Assembly (NCBI GenBank): GCA_040753085.1
Contig: JBFMHI010000009.1
Location: 1 to 40,909 of the forward strand
Direction: 5' to 3'
Length of the DNA: 40,909 bases
From: a bacterium
GTDB taxonomy: Bacteria > UBA9089 > JASEGY01
Each line of letters begins with the position of its first letter. Position 1 is the stretch's first letter. A program made the position numbers and the translations under genes. Positions 4,147-38,732 of the stretch are shown here, in pieces. The notes under the pieces were generated by a model. The model had not been told where the DNA came from. It made no database searches and saw nothing but the letters and a program-made list of their open reading frames with translations.

Positions 4147-4266
4147 GTAACTACTCAGGTTGTTTAGACTGAAGGCTGAAGGCTGAAGGCTGTCCCTAAA
4201 AGCCTTCCACCTTCAGCCTTCAGCCTTCAGCCTAAAAGCCTTCAGCCTATCTACCTGAGTAGTTAC
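4147..4266. mobile_element. TIR-bounded non-coding element, GTAACTACTCAGG type, copy 1
   Basis: The ends GTAACTACTCAGGT (4147-4160) and ACCTGAGTAGTTAC (4253-4266) are a perfect 14-bp terminal inverted repeat. The interior is a palindromic array of the heptamer GGCTGAA and its complement. Related copies are at 20180-20250 and 23585-23657. It has no ORF; if mobile it would need a transposase encoded elsewhere. Confidence 0.7.
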
Positions 4267-5189: not shown

Positions 5190-6158
5190 TTACCGCTGAT
5201 AAGAAGCCACTAACAGTATATCGTTTTCCCTGGCTACCTCAGACGCGGTGGGATGGATGTAGTAACCAAACATCACCTTAATTACCGGCTTCTGTAGGCT
5301 TTGTTCTACCAGAATAGCCTGTTTAGCAAAATCAGCCGCTTCTCTGCCATATATCCTTGATTTGCTCTCTCCCAGAATAATTACCTCTTCTCCATCCTCA
5401 CGCTTCCCTTCACCATAAAGGTCTATCTCAACTTCTTTACTGTCCACGACAAAGAACTTCCTGGTCAATTCTTCGACAAAGATATGGAGGTGTCTTTCCA
5501 GATAACCGGGCAACACCAGGCGGGCAATATCTTCCAATCCAAAACCTATGTTGTCGGACAACCTACCTACATTGACTGATAGGGCCGCCAGCGCTTCTTC
5601 TGTTTTTTTCTGAGCCTGAGCCAGTTCTTCTATGGCTTGCTCCACCCTGGTCAACCTCTCTTCCGAGGCTTTTTGGGCCTGAGCAAGCTCTTGTATGGCT
5701 TGCTCCACCCTGGTCAACCTCTCTTCCGAGGCTTTTTGGGCCTGAGCAAGCTCTTGTATGGCTTGCTCCACCCTGGTCAACCTCTCTTCCGAGGCTTTTT
5801 GGGCCTGAGCAAGCTCTTGTATGATTTGCTCCACCCTCGTCAACCTGTCTTCCGAGGCCTTCTGAGCCTGAGCAAGCTCTTCGACTCTTTCTTCCGTTCT
5901 TTGCTGGGCCTGAGCAAGTTTTTCTATGGCTTGCTCCACCCTGGTCAACCTGTCCTCCGAGGCTTTCTGGGCCTGAGCAAGTTTTTCAATGGCTCGCTCC
6001 ACCCCGGTTAACCTGCCTTCCGCGGCTTTCTGGGCCTGAGCCAGCTCAGCTACAATTCCTCTCAACTCACTGAAATCCTGGCGAATAATATCACTTTTTT
6101 CAACCCGCTCATCAACTATTTTCACCACAAGATCATACAGCTCGGCTGATATAGCCAT
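5190..6158 (-). CDS. Coiled-coil protein with C-terminal PD-(D/E)XK-like nuclease domain
   Basis: The 322-residue protein has a short N-terminal helix, then about residues 35-195 of 21-residue repeats of the form LAQAQKASEERLTRVEQAI, three heptads each, giving a long coiled coil. The C-terminal ~110 residues contain VEIDLYGEGKRE, then EEVIILGESKSRIYG, which fits the D...E-x-K core of PD-(D/E)XK nucleases (DUF3782-like proteins have this build). A second protein of the same plan is at 13548-14231. Function is unknown; a DNA-end or structure-specific nuclease held by a coiled-coil rod is a guess. ATG 6158 follows GGAGGCG. It sits between dapA and dapB in a biosynthetic operon with no evident link to lysine. 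Confidence 0.7.
   Translation of the reverse strand: MAISAELYDLVVKIVDERVEKSDIIRQDFSELRGIVAELAQAQKAAEGRLTGVERAIEKLAQAQKASEDRLTRVEQAIEKLAQAQQRTEERVEELAQAQKASEDRLTRVEQIIQELAQAQKASEERLTRVEQAIQELAQAQKASEERLTRVEQAIQELAQAQKASEERLTRVEQAIEELAQAQKKTEEALAALSVNVGRLSDNIGFGLEDIARLVLPGYLERHLHIFVEELTRKFFVVDSKEVEIDLYGEGKREDGEEVIILGESKSRIYGREAADFAKQAILVEQSLQKPVIKVMFGYYIHPTASEVARENDILLVASYQR
5635..5823 (-). repeat. Three identical 63-bp tandem repeats inside the coiled-coil gene
   Basis: Units 5635-5697, 5698-5760 and 5761-5823 appear identical base for base, each encoding 21 residues (three coiled-coil heptads). Flanking units at 5824-5886, 5929-5991 and 5992-6054 are diverged, and 5887-5928 is a 42-bp short unit. 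Base-level identity suggests recent expansion by slippage or recombination, so rod length likely varies between strains. Confidence 0.9.
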
Positions 6159-9888: not shown

Positions 9889-10005
9889 CTCGATGCTCGA
9901 TGCTCGATGCTCGAGCATCCAGCCTCGAGCATCCAGCATCCAGCATCCAGCCTCGAGCATCGAGCATCCAGCCTCGAGCATCCAGCATCCAGCCTCGAGC
10001 ATCGA
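9889..10005. repeat. GATGCTC heptamer array in the leader of the dap operon
   Basis: About 117 bases of GATGCTC on the left and of CGAGCATC/CCAGCATC-type units on the right. It lies between the promoter at 10024-10052 and the lipoprotein start, so it would be transcribed into the 5' leader and fold into a hairpin. Confidence 0.9.
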
Positions 10006-11245: not shown

Positions 11246-11947
11246 TTGTCCCGATTGAAGAAAAGATTGGAGGAAGTCAAGGCTCGTATCTTTAGAGCCG
11301 CCGAAAGAAGTAGTCGCGACCCCTCCCGAATTAAGTTGGTAGCTGTAACCAAACAGGTTGAAGTAGACACAATTAGAGAGGCTATTTCGGCCGGGGTGAC
11401 CATCATCGGTGAAAGTCGTGTCCAGGAGGCAAGCAGAAAGTATGATCAGATGGGGCGTGCTGGTCTGGCCTGGCATTTAGTAGGCCATTTACAGACGAAC
11501 AAGGTTAAGCGTGCCCTGGAAATATTTAATTTTATCCATTCGGTGGACCGGCTCTCTTTGGCTGAGGAGATCGATCGCCGCGCCCGTCAGGAGGGCAAGG
11601 TAGTTCCGGTTCTTATTCAGGTGAATGTAGCGGCTAAGGAGAGCCAATTCGGCCTATTGGAAGATCAGCTTTTTCCTCTCCTCTCCAAGATAGATGGTCT
11701 GGAACATCTCCAGATCGAGGGCCTGATGACTATCGCCCCCCTGACCACTGATCCGGAAGAGGCACGACCTTATTTTAGACGCCTTCGAGAAATAGCTGAA
11801 GAGGTTAAGCATCGGACCTGGAAGTCAATCAAGATGAAATACCTTTCTATGGGGATGAGTAATGATTTTGAAGTGGCCATCGAGGAGGGGGCTAATATGG
11901 TCCGAATCGGTTCGGCTATCTTTGGAGGTTGGAGCTATCGAGGATAA
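11246..11947 (+). CDS. yggS: YggS/PLPBP family PLP-binding homeostasis protein
   Basis: PLPBP proteins hold PLP and affect vitamin B6 and amino/keto-acid balance; no catalytic activity is established. The 233-residue TIM barrel has the PLP lysine at about Lys36 in LVAVTKQV, GESRVQEA, WHLVGHLQTNK, and the C-terminal LSMGMSNDFEVAI and VRIGSAIFG that hold the phosphate. I choose TTG 11246 because GGGAGA lies 8-9 bases upstream and the length then fits the family; GTG 11225 and ATG 11147 would extend into the upstream element. yggS-proC-yggT-DUF167 is a classic order. The heptamer array begins right at its stop. Confidence 0.92.
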   Translation: MSRLKKRLEEVKARIFRAAERSSRDPSRIKLVAVTKQVEVDTIREAISAGVTIIGESRVQEASRKYDQMGRAGLAWHLVGHLQTNKVKRALEIFNFIHSVDRLSLAEEIDRRARQEGKVVPVLIQVNVAAKESQFGLLEDQLFPLLSKIDGLEHLQIEGLMTIAPLTTDPEEARPYFRRLREIAEEVKHRTWKSIKMKYLSMGMSNDFEVAIEEGANMVRIGSAIFGGWSYRG

Positions 11948-12051
11948 ATTGCGAATTGCGAATTGCGAATTGCGAATCGCGAATCTATTTTTTAAAATCC
12001 GCAATTCGCAATCCGCGATTCTCAATTCGCAATCCGCGATTCGCGATAAGG
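11946..12051. repeat. GCGAATT heptamer array, palindromic, between yggS and proC
   Basis: Tandem GCGAATT units run left to right, then a TATTTTTTAAAA centre, then complementary AATTCGC/AATCCGC units. Folding gives a long hairpin with an A/T loop. The same layout with the same loop occurs at 29013-29078 and, split by an insertion, at 34834-35130. Confidence 0.85.
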
Positions 12052-16975: not shown

Positions 16976-17191
16976 CCACAGATGCACACAGATGAAACAC
17001 GGAAAATCCGTGAGCCGTGTCCGTGATTCGGGTCTGTCCTTAGGCTGTAGGGACAACCCTTGTGGTTGTCCGTCTACGGAACGGACAGGGATAAGCACGG
17101 ACATGGACAAGCCCTGTCCCTACAATTCCGCCTTCTGCCCTGTGTTACTTATCGGTGTTAATCCGTGTGTGCAGCTATACCTGAACGGTTA
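16965..17191. mobile_element. ~225-bp TIR element, GTAACCGTTCAG type, copy A
   Basis: Bounded by TAACCGTTTAG and CTGAACGGTTA, with an interior containing CACGGAAAATCCGTG, GTAGGGACA.../TGTCCCTAC and GGACAACCC palindromes. It is closely similar over its whole length to copies B (23653-23878), C (26711-26938) and D (34876-35096). There is no ORF. Copy A shares its left end with the ileS stop codon. Confidence 0.85.
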
Positions 17192-17696: not shown

Positions 17697-17823
17697 GTAA
17701 CCGTTCAGCACATGATGCTGGATGCTCGATCCTCGATGCTCGATCCTCGATGCTGGTAAAGGATCCAGTATCCAGGATCGAGCATCGAGCATCGAGTTTG
17801 TGTCTTTGTGGCTGAACACTTAC
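17697..17823. mobile_element. TIR-bounded element carrying a GATGCTC heptamer array
   Basis: GTAACCGTTCAG (17697-17708) and CTGAACACTTAC (17812-17823) bound a palindromic array of GATGCTC units (17713-17796) and the flank TTGTGTCTTTGTGGC. A like element with the same inner flank is at 29320-29461. It lies between dksA and lspA. Confidence 0.7.
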
Positions 17824-20471: not shown

Positions 20472-20480
20472 AAAGGGAGG

Positions 20481-20554
20481 CTCGATGCTTGATGCTCGAT
20501 GCTCGAGGATCGAGCATCGAGGATCGAGCATCGAGCATCGAGCATCGAGCATCA
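20481..20554. repeat. GATGCTC heptamer array between the fabH ribosome binding site and its start
   Basis: GATGCTT/GATGCTC units and their complement GAGCATC/GATCGAG run from just after AAAAGGGAGG (20471-20480) to the base before the native ATG at 20555. The array is self-complementary, so folding could bring the two ends together. Confidence 0.9.
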
Positions 20555-23657: not shown

Positions 23658-23878
23658 CGTTCAGGTATAGCTGCACGGATTAGCACGGATAAATAACACA
23701 GGACAGAAGGCGGAAGTGTAGGGACAGGGCTTGTCCCTGTCCGTGCTTGTCCATGTCCGTTCCGTAGACGGACAACCACAAGGGTTGTCCCTACAGCCTA
23801 AGGACAGACCCGAATCACGGACACGGCTCACGGATTTTCCGTGTTTTCATCTGTGTGCATCTGTGGCTGAACGGTTAC
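23653..23878. mobile_element. ~225-bp TIR element, copy B
   Basis: GTAACCGTTCAGG at the left and CTGAACGGTTAC at the right. It is in the opposite orientation to copies A and D. It sits between two CTGAGTAG(G/T)TAC ends, consistent with insertion into, or next to, a GTAACTACTCAG-type element. Confidence 0.85.
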
Positions 23879-24656: not shown

Positions 24657-24780
24657 TTAAGTTTCGGGTTGCCACTTTCGAGTGGCAAGTTTTGAGGAGC
24701 AGGAAACGGGAAGCCTAATAAATCCGAAGCTCACCAATCCGAATGAACTCGAAACCCGAAACCCGAAACTCGAAACTTAA
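24657..24780. repeat. CGAAACC heptamer array between fabG and acpP
   Basis: AAGTTTCGGGTTG and CACTTTCGAGTGGCAAG on the left, CTCGAAACCCGAAACCCGAA (about 24748-24767) then ACTCGAAACTT on the right. The right arm is four heptamers; the left arm is a degenerate complement. It ends before the AGGGGGT site of acpP. Confidence 0.75.
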
Positions 24781-26728: not shown

Positions 26729-26938
26729 CTGCACGGATTAGCATGGATAAATAACACAGGACAGAAGGCGGAAGTGTAGGGACAGGGGGCTTGTCCCTGT
26801 CCGTGCTTGTCCATGTCCGTTCCGTAGACGGACAACCACAAGGGTTGTCCCTACAGCCCTAAGGACAGACCCGAATCACGGACACGGCTCACGGATTTTC
26901 CGTGTTTCATCTGTGTGCATCTGTGGCTGAACGGTTAC
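26711..26938. mobile_element. ~225-bp TIR element, copy C, overlapping the fabF 3' end
   Basis: GTAACCGTTCAGG (from 26711) to CTGAACGGTTAC (to 26938); nearly identical to copy B with small indels. Its first 18 bases serve as the last codons and stop of fabF, so insertion appears to have replaced or extended the native stop. Confidence 0.85.
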
Positions 26939-29319: not shown

Positions 29320-29461
29320 GTAGCCGTTCAGCCACTAAGGCACAAAGACACAACCTCGATCCTCGATGCTCGATCCTGGATACTGGATCCTTTACCAGCA
29401 TCGAAGATCGAGCATCGAGCATCGAGCATCGAGCATCCAGCATCATGTGATGAACGGTTAC
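29320..29461. mobile_element. TIR-bounded element carrying a GATGCTC array
   Basis: GTAGCCGTTCAGCCAC at the left and ATGAACGGTTAC at the right; interior AGGCACAAAGACACAA then GATGCTCGATCC and GAGCATCGAGCATC units (29353-29444). Its relative is at 17697-17823. Confidence 0.7.
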
Positions 29462-29498: not shown

Positions 29499-30802
29499 AG
29501 AGAGTCCATATCATCACCTATGGTTGTCAGATGAATAAGAGCGATTCAGAGATGATGAACGGACTTCTAAGACAGAAAGGGTATTTACCTGCGGCGGCCA
29601 TAGAGGAAGCCGATCTTATTCTGGTCAATACTTGTAGTGTCAGGGCTCATGCCGAGTCCCGGGCTTTAGGCCGCCTGGGAGAATTAGCCCGCCTGAAACG
29701 TAAACGGCCTGATATTATCCTGGGGGTCTGTGGATGTATGGCCGAGCGCCAGAGAGATCATCTGCTCCAGAAAGCCCCTTACCTTGATTTTATTCTTGGT
29801 CCACGCCGTTTGGCTGAGCTTCCTGAAATAGTTGACTCAGTTAATAGTAGAAATAGCCCTCTCCTATGCACTGGCCCCGAAAGAGACCCCTCTCCCCCTT
29901 CTTTGCATCTTTCCCTTAGAGAAAACAACTTGAAGGCCTGGTTGCCCATAAGCCTTGGTTGTAATAATTTCTGTGCTTACTGCATAGTGCCGAGCTTGCG
30001 AGGTCCTTTAAAAAGCCGTGATTCCGGGGAGATTATTAAAGAAGCTGAATCCCTGGCGGAAAATGGCTACCGGGAAGTTACCCTTCTGGGACAAAATGTA
30101 AACGCTTACGGTCAGGATAGACCTGGAGAAATTGATTTTGCTGGGCTTTTAGAGCAGCTCAACGCGGTGGCGGGACTAAGCAGGATAAGATTTGCTACTT
30201 CTCATCCGAAGGATATCTCCTCCCGAGTAATAGATGCCTTAGCAGATTTGCCCAGCGTATGTGAGGCCCTTCATCTTCCCATTCAAGCCGGATCAAATAA
30301 TGTTCTCGCCCGGATGAAACGGGGTTATACGGTGGAGCGTTACCTGGAGATAATCTCCCAAATAAGGGAGAAGATACCTAAGATCGCTATCAGCACGGAT
30401 ATCATTGTGGGGTTCCCTGGAGAGACAGAGGATGATTTTGAAGCCACCCTGGCTTTAGTGGAGGAAGCAGGCTTTGATGGGGCCTTTACCTTCAAATATT
30501 CTCCCCGACCTGGCACGCCGGCGGCAGAAATGCCCGATCAAATTCCGGAGGAGGTAAGAAAGGCGCGACTCGACAGACTGATCAAGCTCCAAAATCGAAT
30601 CACCCAACAGAAGAACGAAGCCCTTATTGGCAGCGAGCAGGAGGTTTTAGTGGAGGGGAAGAACCCAAAAAGACCCGGTTTTTTGCTTGGCCGGACCAGG
30701 ACTGATAAGACCACCACCTTTGCCGGCCATGAAAGCCTGATTGGGCAGATAGTTAATGTTAATATTACTAAAGCTACTACCTGGTGTATTGGTGACTGGT
30801 AG
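29495..30802 (+). CDS. miaB: tRNA 2-methylthio-N6-isopentenyladenosine37 methylthiotransferase
   Basis: MiaB adds a methylthio group to i6A37 in tRNAs reading UNN codons. The 435 residues show the UPF0004 domain with Cys10 (YGCQMNKSDSE), Cys near 46 (NTCSVRAHAE) and Cys near 80 (CGCMAE) for one cluster, the radical-SAM CNNFCAYC (Cys156, 160, 163), and a TRAM domain ending VNVNITKATTW. The start TTG 29495 lies in a TAATTGA heptamer and has no ribosome binding site; no better start precedes the conserved N-terminus. Translation may thus be weak or its native start was lost. Confidence 0.95.
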   Translation: MKRVHIITYGCQMNKSDSEMMNGLLRQKGYLPAAAIEEADLILVNTCSVRAHAESRALGRLGELARLKRKRPDIILGVCGCMAERQRDHLLQKAPYLDFILGPRRLAELPEIVDSVNSRNSPLLCTGPERDPSPPSLHLSLRENNLKAWLPISLGCNNFCAYCIVPSLRGPLKSRDSGEIIKEAESLAENGYREVTLLGQNVNAYGQDRPGEIDFAGLLEQLNAVAGLSRIRFATSHPKDISSRVIDALADLPSVCEALHLPIQAGSNNVLARMKRGYTVERYLEIISQIREKIPKIAISTDIIVGFPGETEDDFEATLALVEEAGFDGAFTFKYSPRPGTPAAEMPDQIPEEVRKARLDRLIKLQNRITQQKNEALIGSEQEVLVEGKNPKRPGFLLGRTRTDKTTTFAGHESLIGQIVNVNITKATTWCIGDW

Positions 30803-31171
30803 TTACAAAATGACGCCCTGTGAAAATCCCAGGTTTTACTACTAAAGCTACTACTGGTGTATTGGTGACTGGTAGTTACAAAATGACGCCCTGTGAAAAT
30901 CCCAGGTTTTACTACTAAAGCTACTACCTGGTGTATTGGTGACTGGTAGTTACAAAATGACGCCCTGTGAAAATCCCAGGTTTTACTACTAAAGCTACTA
31001 CCTGGTGTATTGGGGACTGGTAGTTACAAAATGATGCCCTGTGAAAATCCCAGGTTTTACTACTAAAGCTACTACCTGGTGTATTGGTGACTGGTAGTTA
31101 CAAAATGATGCCCTGTGAAAATCCCAGGTTTTACTACTAAAGCTACTACCTGGTGTATTGGTGACTGGTAG
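30767..31171 (+). repeat. Five 73-74-bp tandem repeats copied from the miaB 3' end
   Basis: Units start at 30803, 30876, 30950, 31024 and 31098 and end at 31171. Each ends in the last 36 bases of miaB (ACTAAAGCTACTACC... to the TAG). The copies are nearly identical, so this is a recent expansion seeded by the gene end. CCAGGT and ACCTGG in each unit can form a hairpin. 31172-31295 adds GTCCACCGAGTCCACCGTCC like the array at 38638-38727. Confidence 0.9.
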
Positions 31172-34833: not shown

Positions 34834-35130
34834 TAATCGCGAATCGCGGATCGCGAATTGCGAATTAAAAAATAGGTAACCGTTCAGCCACAGATGCACA
34901 CAGATGAAACACGGAAAATCCGTGAGCCGTGTCCGTGATTAGGGTCTGTCCTTAGGCTGTAGGGACAACCCTTGTGGTTGTCCGTCTACGGAACGGACAT
35001 GGACAAGCACGGACAGGGACAAGCCCTGTCCCTACACTTCCGCCTTCTGTCCTGTGTTATTTATCCGTGCTAATTCGTGCATACCTGAACGGTTACAAAA
35101 ATAGATTCGAGATTCGCGATTAACGATTCA
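34834..35130. repeat. GCGAATT-type heptamer array split by element copy D
   Basis: ATCGCGAATCGCGGATCGCG...AATTAAAAAATAG (34834-34875) on the left and AAAAATAGATTCGAGATTCG...CGATTAACGATT (35097-35130) on the right are the two arms of one palindromic array. Copy D (34876-35096) lies exactly between them. Confidence 0.75.
34876..35096. mobile_element. ~225-bp TIR element, copy D
   Basis: GTAACCGTTCAGCCACAG (from 34876) and CTGAACGGTTAC (to 35096), interior as in copy A and same orientation. It is inserted in the loop of a GCGAATT array between rny and ymdB. Confidence 0.85.
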
Positions 35131-35157: not shown

Positions 35158-36711
35158 TTACTTAGCATACTTTACAAAGCGAGTTTCTCTAATGACCGTC
35201 ACCTTAATTTGACCTGGGTATTCCAGCTCAACTTCAATCTTCTTGGCAATCTCCATGGCCAAAACAGCCGACTCATCATCGCTTATATCCTCACTTTGAA
35301 CTATCACCCGCACCTCGCGTCCCGCCTGAATAGCATAAGCCTTCTCTACCCCCCTAAAAGAAGCCGCGATTCCCTCCAACTTTTCCAGGCGTTTGACGTA
35401 TGTTTCCAGGTTCTCTCTTCGGGCGCCCGGTCGAGCCGCCGAGATGGCGTCGGCGGCCTGAATGAGCACAGCTTCAACGGTTCTGGGTGATTCTTCCATA
35501 TGATGAGAGGCAATAGCATTAACGATGGTCTTTGACTCACCCAATTTTCTGGCTATATCTGCCCCGATAAGGGCATGGGGGCCTTCTACTTCAGCATCAA
35601 TGGCCTTGCCTAAATCATGAAGCAAACCCGCCCGTTTAACCAGGGCCACATTAGCCCCTAACTCAGAAGCCATAAGAGTCCCCAGCCTGGCCACTTCCTT
35701 GGAATGGGCCAGGACATTCTGTCCAAAGCTGGTTCTATATCTAAGCTTACCCAAAAGACGAATAGACTCAGCCGGAAGGCCCTGAACCCCCATATCAATG
35801 GCCGCCTGTTCACCCTCTTCTTTAATGCTTCGTTCGATATCTTCCTTGGCTTTGGCCACTACCTCTTCAATCCTGGTCGGATGAATTCGGCCATCGGAGA
35901 TCAATTTCTCTAAGGCCACCTTGGCTATTTCCCGCCGGATAGTATCAAAACCGGAAAGGATAACCGCCTCAGGGGTATCATCGATGATAAGATCAACACC
36001 GGTTAAGGTCTCCAAGGTGCGAATATTCCTGCCTTCTCGGCCGATAATTCGCCCCTTCATCTCGTCAGAGGGCAGAGAAACCACTGAGACAGTGCTTTCC
36101 ATCGTGTGCTCAGCCGCACACCGCTGGATAGCCTGAGTAATTATTTCTCGCGCCTTTCTATCACCTGTTTCTCTGGCCTCTTCTTCAATCTGACGGATAA
36201 GTTTAGCCGCCTCATGTCGGCTCTCCACCTCAATGTTTCTTAAAAGAATCCTCTTGGCGTCCTCAGTAGATAATCCGGATATTTGCTCTAACTGTTTTCG
36301 CTGTTCTTCCCGAAGTTGCTTGACCTCTTCTTCTTGTTTGGCTAAGTCTTGCTCCTGCTTGAGCACCGCCTTCTGTTTCTTGGATAGATCTTCTATTTTT
36401 CGATCAATATTTTCTTCCTTTTGGAGAAGACGAGACTCTAATCGTTGAGTTTCACCCCGGCGCGATCTAGTCTCCCGTTCAAACTCCGTTCGCTCACGGT
36501 ATATCTCCTCTTTAGCTTCAAGGAGCGCTTCCTTCTTTATGGCTTCTCCTTTCTCTTTACTTTCGGCGATGATCTGTTCGGCTATTTTCTCCGCCTGACC
36601 AATCTTGATCTTGGTGATATATTTTCGATAGAAATAACCAAAAGTAATGCCACTTATAAGAGAAAAGAGAATAACTATTACAAAAAATGGATAATTGTCT
36701 ATAGCTTTCAC
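35158..36711 (-). CDS. rny: Ribonuclease Y
   Basis: RNase Y is a membrane-anchored endoribonuclease that starts mRNA decay. The 517-residue protein has an N-terminal membrane helix ([18 protein letters not shown]), a long coiled coil (about residues 35-185), a KH domain with [15 protein letters not shown] near 222, and an HD domain with the metal pair in LLHDLGKA (about residue 360) and [17 protein letters not shown]. The start is GTG 36711, which overlaps the end of AAGGAGGTG; see finding about an ATA codon placed seven bases after that ribosome binding site. A structured leader and promoter precede it. Confidence 0.95.
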
Positions 36712-37022
36712 CTCCTTACCCTATAAAATTTTCTTTAAAATCAGCTCGTTCTATCTCGACAGTTAAAAGTTCTGGCTCAACGTGGATTCGAGAGGTAAAC
36801 GCCCTCAGGTATCAGGTGTCAGGCATCACTGGTTAGCTCACTGTTGACGGCTGACACCTGATACCTGAACACTTACAATATTACCCCACGAATTCACGTT
36901 GACCCAAAGTTCTACACAAGTCATTGGTATTGTGGGCTTTTGCAGGCCTGATCGCCTTTTGAGGCAAGCGCCTTATTTTGAAGGGGTTAGGCTTGGAAGC
37001 GCACGAGAACTTTTAACTCTCG
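36712..37022 (-). ncRNA. Structured 5' leader or small RNA upstream of rny
   Basis: From the predicted start near 37022, the RNA begins CTCGAGAGTTAAAAGTTCT and ends near 36757 with AGAACTTTTAACTGTCGAG, complementary in 18 of 19 positions. A second stem pairs GGTCAACGTGAATTCG (near 36895-36910) with CGAATCCACGTTGAGCC (near 36770-36787). Between them are small hairpins (CAAGC...GCTTG, GCCT-CAAA-AGGC, CACAA...TTGTG), and a CAGGTRT array is inserted in the second stem. An internal AGAACTTT competes for the 5' strand. It could be a long leader of rny, a 6S-like RNA (zapA-6S-rny order is known in deltaproteobacteria) or unrelated. Confidence 0.45.
36795..36876. mobile_element. CAGGTRT heptamer element in the rny leader
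   Basis: GTAAACGCCCTCAGGTATCA and CTGACACCTGATACCTGAAC-ACTTAC are inverted; heptamers CAGGTAT, CAGGTGT, CAGGCAT read in tandem. Its outer bases GTAA..TCAG/CTGAACACTTAC match the element class seen at 17697-17823. Confidence 0.7.
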
Positions 37023-37028
37023 AGTTCT

Positions 37029-37057
37029 ATTTTATACCTATTAAATGGATATGTCAA
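37029..37057 (-). promoter_or_regulatory. Strong sigma-70 promoter of the rny leader
   Basis: Minus strand: TTGACA (complement of 37052-37057), 17-base spacer, TAAAAT (complement of 37029-37034). Near-perfect consensus, divergent from the promoter at 37076-37104. Confidence 0.75.
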
Positions 37058-37075
37058 GATATAAAAATAAAAAGT

Positions 37076-37149: not shown

Positions 37150-37378
37150 GTAACTACTCAGCCCTCATTTGAAACACAGATGGTTCTTTGGTATTTGCCG
37201 TGGTGCGTGTGATGTTAAGCCTGCATATTGTGGACAAGCCGCCTGCTACTGCAATATGTTGTGTGGCTACAAGGTCACTGAGGGCAATACCACGGGAAAT
37301 ACCAAAGAGCCACACAGATTACACAGATTATCCAGAGGGCCCATCTGTGTTTCTCTTTTTGTCCGGCTGAGTAATGAC
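37150..37378. mobile_element. Nested inverted-repeat element in the leader of the FG-GAP gene
   Basis: Ends GTAACTACTCAGCC (37150-37163) and GGCTGAGTAATGAC (37365-37378). Inside, GAAACACAGATGG (37171-37183) pairs with CCATCTGTGTTTC (37341-37353), and CTTTGGTATTTGCCGTGGT (37186-37204) with its near-perfect complement (37289-37307). The whole element would be transcribed as a long hairpin between promoter and gene. Confidence 0.75.
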
Positions 37379-38609: not shown

Positions 38610-38637
38610 CAAATCAGACGCTTTGGTAGACTCCACC

Positions 38638-38732
38638 GTCCACCTAGTCCACACCGTCCACCTAGTCCACATCGTCCACCTAGTCCACATCGTCCACCTA
38701 GTCCACACCGTCCACCTAGTCCACATCGTCCA
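38638..38732. repeat. 18-bp tandem repeats GTCCACCTAGTCCACAYC
   Basis: Five full units (38638-38727) of an 18-bp sequence, each two 9-bp halves GTCCACCTA and GTCCACATC/ACC. A hairpin GTCCATAGAC...GTCTATGGAC follows (38728-38757). Related bases occur at 31216-31250. This array has a 9-base, not 7-base, half-period. Confidence 0.85.

Follow-up and report, generated by a model that had tools for sequence, protein, structure and literature searches.

Short mobile repeats that become part of bacterial transcripts are known from several groups. The Correia/NEMIS elements of Neisseria are ~100-160 bp long, carry ~25-bp terminal inverted repeats (TIRs), occur in many copies and are co-transcribed with neighbouring genes; in the transcribed copies, the TIRs form a stem in the mRNA that can be cleaved by RNase III (PMC2649163; PMC10969869). 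ERIC/IRU, RUP, BOX and other bacterial MITE-like repeats are likewise short, non-coding, palindromic, intergenic and mobile, and able to alter mRNA stability. The gene considered here also has a described control by its own product. In Bacillus subtilis, RNase Y holds down the level of its own mRNA through cleavage within the first 50 nt of the 5' UTR and early in the ORF (PMC10303841).

The locus that we compare with these systems is the leader of rny, the gene for RNase Y, in a window of 40,909 nucleotides (the whole stretch of DNA that was analysed). We hold it very probable that this leader is made up of two nested MITEs, here called A and B, sitting at the start region of rny, and that its long-range pairing, its internal motif and its strong fold all derive from them. 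Like the Correia/NEMIS elements, A and B are short multi-copy MITEs with TIRs. They differ in sequence and in the target-site duplication (TSD), which is TA for Correia elements and 6-8 bp here; they also differ in that the element here lies at the predicted 5' end of an mRNA and holds a second MITE. The likeness to ERIC/IRU, RUP and BOX is one of form, with no sequence kinship claimed, and A is confined to this genus save for one related copy in another family of the phylum (G003). The element family appears to be uncharacterised so far. With B. subtilis the locus has in common the gene whose product acts there on its own mRNA (PMC10303841), but no conserved structured leader is shared, the leader here being an insertion. 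The features are collected in Table 1.

Table 1. Features of the rny leader and its nested elements, numbered from the first base of the window.
Feature	Positions	Strand	Basis or remark
rny (RNase Y)	35158..36711	-	RNase_Y_N, KH and HD domains (Pfam)
rny promoter: -35 TTGACA 37057-37052, 17-nt spacer, -10 TAAAAT 37034-37029	37029..37057	-	predicted
rny Shine-Dalgarno, AAGGAGGT	36710..36717	-	read from sequence
MITE A: 130 bp + nested 132-bp insertion + 8-bp duplication = 270 bp	36755..37024	-	multi-copy; boundaries from other copies; 17-copy alignment
A TIR, promoter side, CTCGAGAGTTAAAAGTTCTC	37005..37024	-	arm pairing and repeat search
A TIR, rny side, CTCGACAGTTAAAAGTTCT(G), last base part of B	36755..36774	+	arm pairing and repeat search
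A TSD, promoter-side copy (TTCTAT on +, ATAGAA on -)	37025..37030	.	flanks of copies
A TSD, rny-side copy (TTCTAT on +)	36749..36754	.	flanks of copies
MITE B, 132 bp, imperfect TIRs GGNTCAACGTGRATTCGWGRGGTAA, inside A's rny-side TIR	36774..36905	-	full copy elsewhere and TIR matches
AGAACTTT, B TSD (the supposed competing motif)	36906..36913	-	single in undisturbed A copy
AGAACTTT, second copy of B TSD	36766..36773	-	sequence comparison
Palindromic core of B (TCAGGTATCAGGTGTCAG...CTGACACCTGATACCTGA)	36805..36868	.	matched over short stretches in several further genomes of the phylum

The rny Promoter and the Empty Site in the Sister Species

The predicted rny promoter matches the consensus at 11 of the 12 hexamer bases, which bears out an earlier reading made from the sequence alone (the sequence-only reading), where it was called near-consensus. 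It is also present in the sister species G001, the one same-genus genome, where the two hexamers ahead of rny are conserved, as is most of the spacer (TTGACA-17-TAAAAT). The order of the locus is the same in the two species, with a divergent FG-GAP gene, rny and ymdB. The intergenic alignment spans the promoter (TTGACATATCC-TTTTAATGGG-TATAAAATAGA) and then runs through a short leader straight to AAAGGAGGTGA; in this alignment, neither A nor B is present in the rny leader of the sister. Judged by this comparison, the promoter predates the insertion. The transcription start site used in all readings of the leader given below is the one predicted for this promoter.

The 5' region of the divergent FG-GAP gene (37150-37378) holds an inverted-repeat insertion of its own, of ~220 bp, with arms at 37181-37204/37289-37312, 37171-37183/37341-37353 and 37150-37163/37365-37378. 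Since it also is absent from the sister, the divergent promoter region has been invaded in both of its arms.

The start of the rny reading frame has a peculiarity of a different kind. No ATG, GTG or TTG is found at the normal spacing from the Shine-Dalgarno sequence (36711-36697, minus strand). An in-frame ATA occurs 8 nt past GGAGG at the rny genes of this species, the sister and L012 (loci listed: L003, L012), which suggests AUA as the start codon of rny.

Two Nested Repeat Families

In a DNA search, the leader fell apart into two families of repeats. Positions 36906-37028 match many sites in the genome itself and in that of the sister; positions 36774-36905 match a different set of sites. 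Element A was delimited by searching with its sequence as reconstructed without B, and the intact element proved to be 130 bp long, with 20-bp inverted repeats, CTCGASAGTTAAAAGTTCTC, at its ends. A search with the pattern of these TIRs gave 25 matches in the genome itself (12 + 13) and 50 in the sister (26 + 24), and the reversed pattern, used as a control, gave zero in either. At least eight full or near-full copies are present in each of the two genomes, besides truncated and assembly-broken ones; they occupy many intergenic sites, and a rough test against ORFs places them outside these. Most are flanked by direct duplications (ctcaaca, atctgta, atgtgtc, aagaacg, atcttaa, taaaataa, and ttctat at rny), with lengths that vary from 6 to 8 bp and some of them degraded. 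At rny, the promoter-side duplication overlaps the final two bases of the -10 box. Short and non-coding, with TIRs, boundaries shared among copies, TSDs and an empty site in a relative, A has the characters by which a MITE is recognised.

The sequence-only reading had proposed that the first 19 bases of the RNA pair with a stretch about 250 nt downstream. The arms that confirm this lie at 36755-36773 and 37006-37024; they are 19 nt long and 95% complementary, with 232 nt between them. By their agreement with the other copies of the element, these arms are the TIRs of A.

Element B interrupts A within the rny-side TIR. Its own TIRs are ~25 bp and imperfect, and matches to them appear also in the sister and in other genomes of the phylum. 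Copies of B were found on contigs C5, C23 and C77; the one on C5 (G000:C5:8861-8992) is full-length, 96% identical over 132 bp and flanked by an 8-bp TSD, GTTCAATA (gttcaata). B, too, is classed as a MITE from its characters: it is short and non-coding, has TIRs and TSDs, and is present in multiple copies. The internal AGAACTTT that had been singled out as a motif is indeed there, on the minus strand. In an undisturbed copy of A (G000:C7:28006-28138), it occurs once and joins both halves of the element. Since AGAACTTT flanks B on both sides at rny and is single in undisturbed A, what had been taken for a 'competing' AGAACTTT is a trace left by the insertion of B.

The sequences show how the leader was built. 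A entered an existing rny promoter, past the -10 box and ahead of the likely start site, and thereby duplicated ATAGAA. B later entered the rny-side TIR of A, duplicating AGAACTTT and contributing a long hairpin of its own to the leader. Transcription of rny would still proceed from the old promoter, so placed that the mRNA would now begin inside A's TIR with its 5' end in a stem, and the leader would be ~300-310 nt long instead of ~40. The ribosome-binding site would be unaffected by these events. The pairing of the rny Shine-Dalgarno sequence is predicted to be identical with and without the element, and occlusion of the ribosome-binding site by the element was rejected on this ground.

A Probable Parent Transposon

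On contig C138 of the sister, a TIR identical to A's adjoins a truncated, frame-broken transposase gene, and the contig ends before a second TIR would be reached. In the genome under study, a remnant of this gene sits close to a related TIR (G000:C41). The C138 fragment matches the NCBIfam IS701 model weakly, at 20 bits, and a Pfam search of the fragment gave no match. It is 33-37% identical to annotated transposases of Paraburkholderia, Caballeronia and Polaromonas plasmids, and one such annotated relative scores 156 bits against an IS701 subfamily model, under the cutoff of 170. A search for the source of the transposase among viral contigs found none. From its position beside an identical TIR, the element carrying this fragment is the probable parent of A, and it is IS701-like at best. 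The likeness to IS701-like transposons consists of the transposase fragment beside the A-identical TIR and its weak match to the IS701 model. IS701 elements usually give 4-bp TSDs, and because of this the family name is uncertain, the duplications here being 6-8 bp and the parent copy being truncated.

Fold of the Leader and Rival Explanations

The claim that the RNA folds strongly stands. From ~37022 to the ribosome-binding site, the leader folds at -120.1 kcal/mol, compared to -78.6 for shuffled sequences (z = -8.5). Since the predicted start of the RNA is inside A's TIR, the 5' nucleotides are predicted to be nearly all paired with the element present; they are mostly unpaired without it. 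The proposed switch between two pairings did not hold up. The outer pairing, between the TIRs, comes to -135.4 kcal/mol and the alternative pairing to -126.7. The outer pairing is better by 8.7 kcal/mol, and therefore there is no balanced switch; the origin of AGAACTTT as the TSD of B rules it out as well. A lack of covariation in homologues was an outcome that the sequence-only reading had itself named as refuting it, and this is what was obtained. Among 17 aligned copies of A, the TIR stem is paired in 97% of the cells, yet covariation in this stem did not rise above that of shuffles by any measure; one pair has a two-sided change, and 333 of 500 shuffles scored as high or higher. The helix is therefore explained by conservation of the TIR at the DNA level. 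RNAalifold predicted two short internal helices in A, of 2-4 pairs each.

These results bear on the idea that the leader is a conserved cis-regulatory RNA of rny, switching between two pairings, with cleavage by RNase Y or RNase III serving autoregulation. The strong fold speaks for it, as does the precedent of B. subtilis, where RNase Y autoregulates through cleavage in the 5' UTR (PMC10303841), and, provided that the start site is predicted correctly, transcripts of the rny promoter would include the element. However, the sister has the promoter without any such RNA, the arms are the TIRs of a multi-copy element found elsewhere, covariation does not exceed that of shuffles, and the alternative pairing is energetically the poorer one and depends on a TSD. 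We consider a conserved leader very unlikely. The suggestion of a divergent 6S-like RNA transcribed before rny fares worse, and we give it next to no credence. Its attraction is the long closing stem, which is a superficial likeness since the stem is a transposon TIR. The 6S covariance model (RF00013) has no match at the leader at the gathering threshold or at E<=10, other Rfam families match there at chance level only, and the one 6S RNA of the genome is a good match (94.6 bits) on another contig, C64. On these grounds, 6S RNA was rejected. The background statement that 6S can lie near rny in some bacteria gained one supporting instance, an Rfam 6S hit ~1 kb upstream of rny in L026.

A further possibility accepts the nested MITEs but supposes that A has been domesticated, so that selection keeps the TIR stem at the 5' end of the transcript because it stabilises the rny mRNA or blunts autoregulation. 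The position of the insertion, past the -10 box and ahead of the likely start, with promoter and ribosome-binding site left intact, speaks for such a role, and so does the predicted shift of the 5' nucleotides into a paired state. In B. subtilis, autoregulation acts within the initial 50 nt of the 5' UTR (PMC10303841). Against this, the insertion is found in one species only, A has been disrupted by a nested insertion as unconstrained DNA would be, and copies of A lie in many other intergenic sites. We regard domestication as unlikely. Disrupted by nesting and seen in a single species, the insertion has the look of neutral mobile DNA, and the leader is most likely ordinary mobile DNA, neither a conserved RNA switch nor 6S RNA.

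Other Repeats in the Window

The window is rich in repeats of other kinds. Short tandem arrays lie at 4169-4233, 9889-10003, 11947-12044, 17714-17796, 20477-20553, 24746-24777 and 29355-29444. Nearly all have a period of 7 or a multiple of it, with runs of at least 14 matches at lags 7, 14 and 21, the sole other lag being 18, in one array. The heptamers of the period-7 arrays differ from one another (AGCCTTC, GATGCTC, AATTGCG, AACTCGA) and are often paired in inverted orientation, which gives hairpins; for comparison, Beggiatoaceae have TAACTGA repeats (PMC4679880). Just past the FG-GAP gene, at 38634-38732, is an 18-bp tandem array of CACCGTCCACCTAGTCCA with 5.5 copies and 96% matches. Longer units are found at 30766-31171 (74 bp, 5.5 copies, 98% identical) and at 5607-6047 (63 bp, ~7 copies, a codon-like period). 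A 16-bp unit, ACGGACAGGGACAAGC or its near reverse complement, stands twice in tandem at 17081-17112, 23729-23760, 26789-26820 and 34993-35024, and is perhaps another dispersed repeat.

Implications for RNase Y and for Calling Riboregulators

Returning to the nested MITEs, their presence in the leader could alter the stability or the autoregulation of rny mRNA. By analogy with known 5'-terminal stems and with the transcribed elements of Neisseria, the insertion may stabilise the mRNA or create a site for RNase III, and autoregulation by RNase Y might be weakened in a leader that bears the element. The leader may also be cut by RNase Y. The strongest form of this idea is that the element has taken over the transcription start of the gene for a global mRNA-decay enzyme and sets the stability of the mRNA, the stem shielding the 5' end of the transcript against RNase Y and against 5' exonucleases and so uncoupling rny from autoregulation of the Bacillus type. 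We think it improbable that matters have gone so far.

What the locus does illustrate is how closely nested MITEs can mimic a structured regulatory RNA. There is a strong promoter, an extreme fold score, a long-range helix and an apparent alternative pairing, all put down to TIRs and a TSD. It serves as a warning that riboregulators should not be called from a single genome. If the insertion does change the decay of rny mRNA, the two sister species would constitute a natural experiment on the autoregulation of RNase Y.
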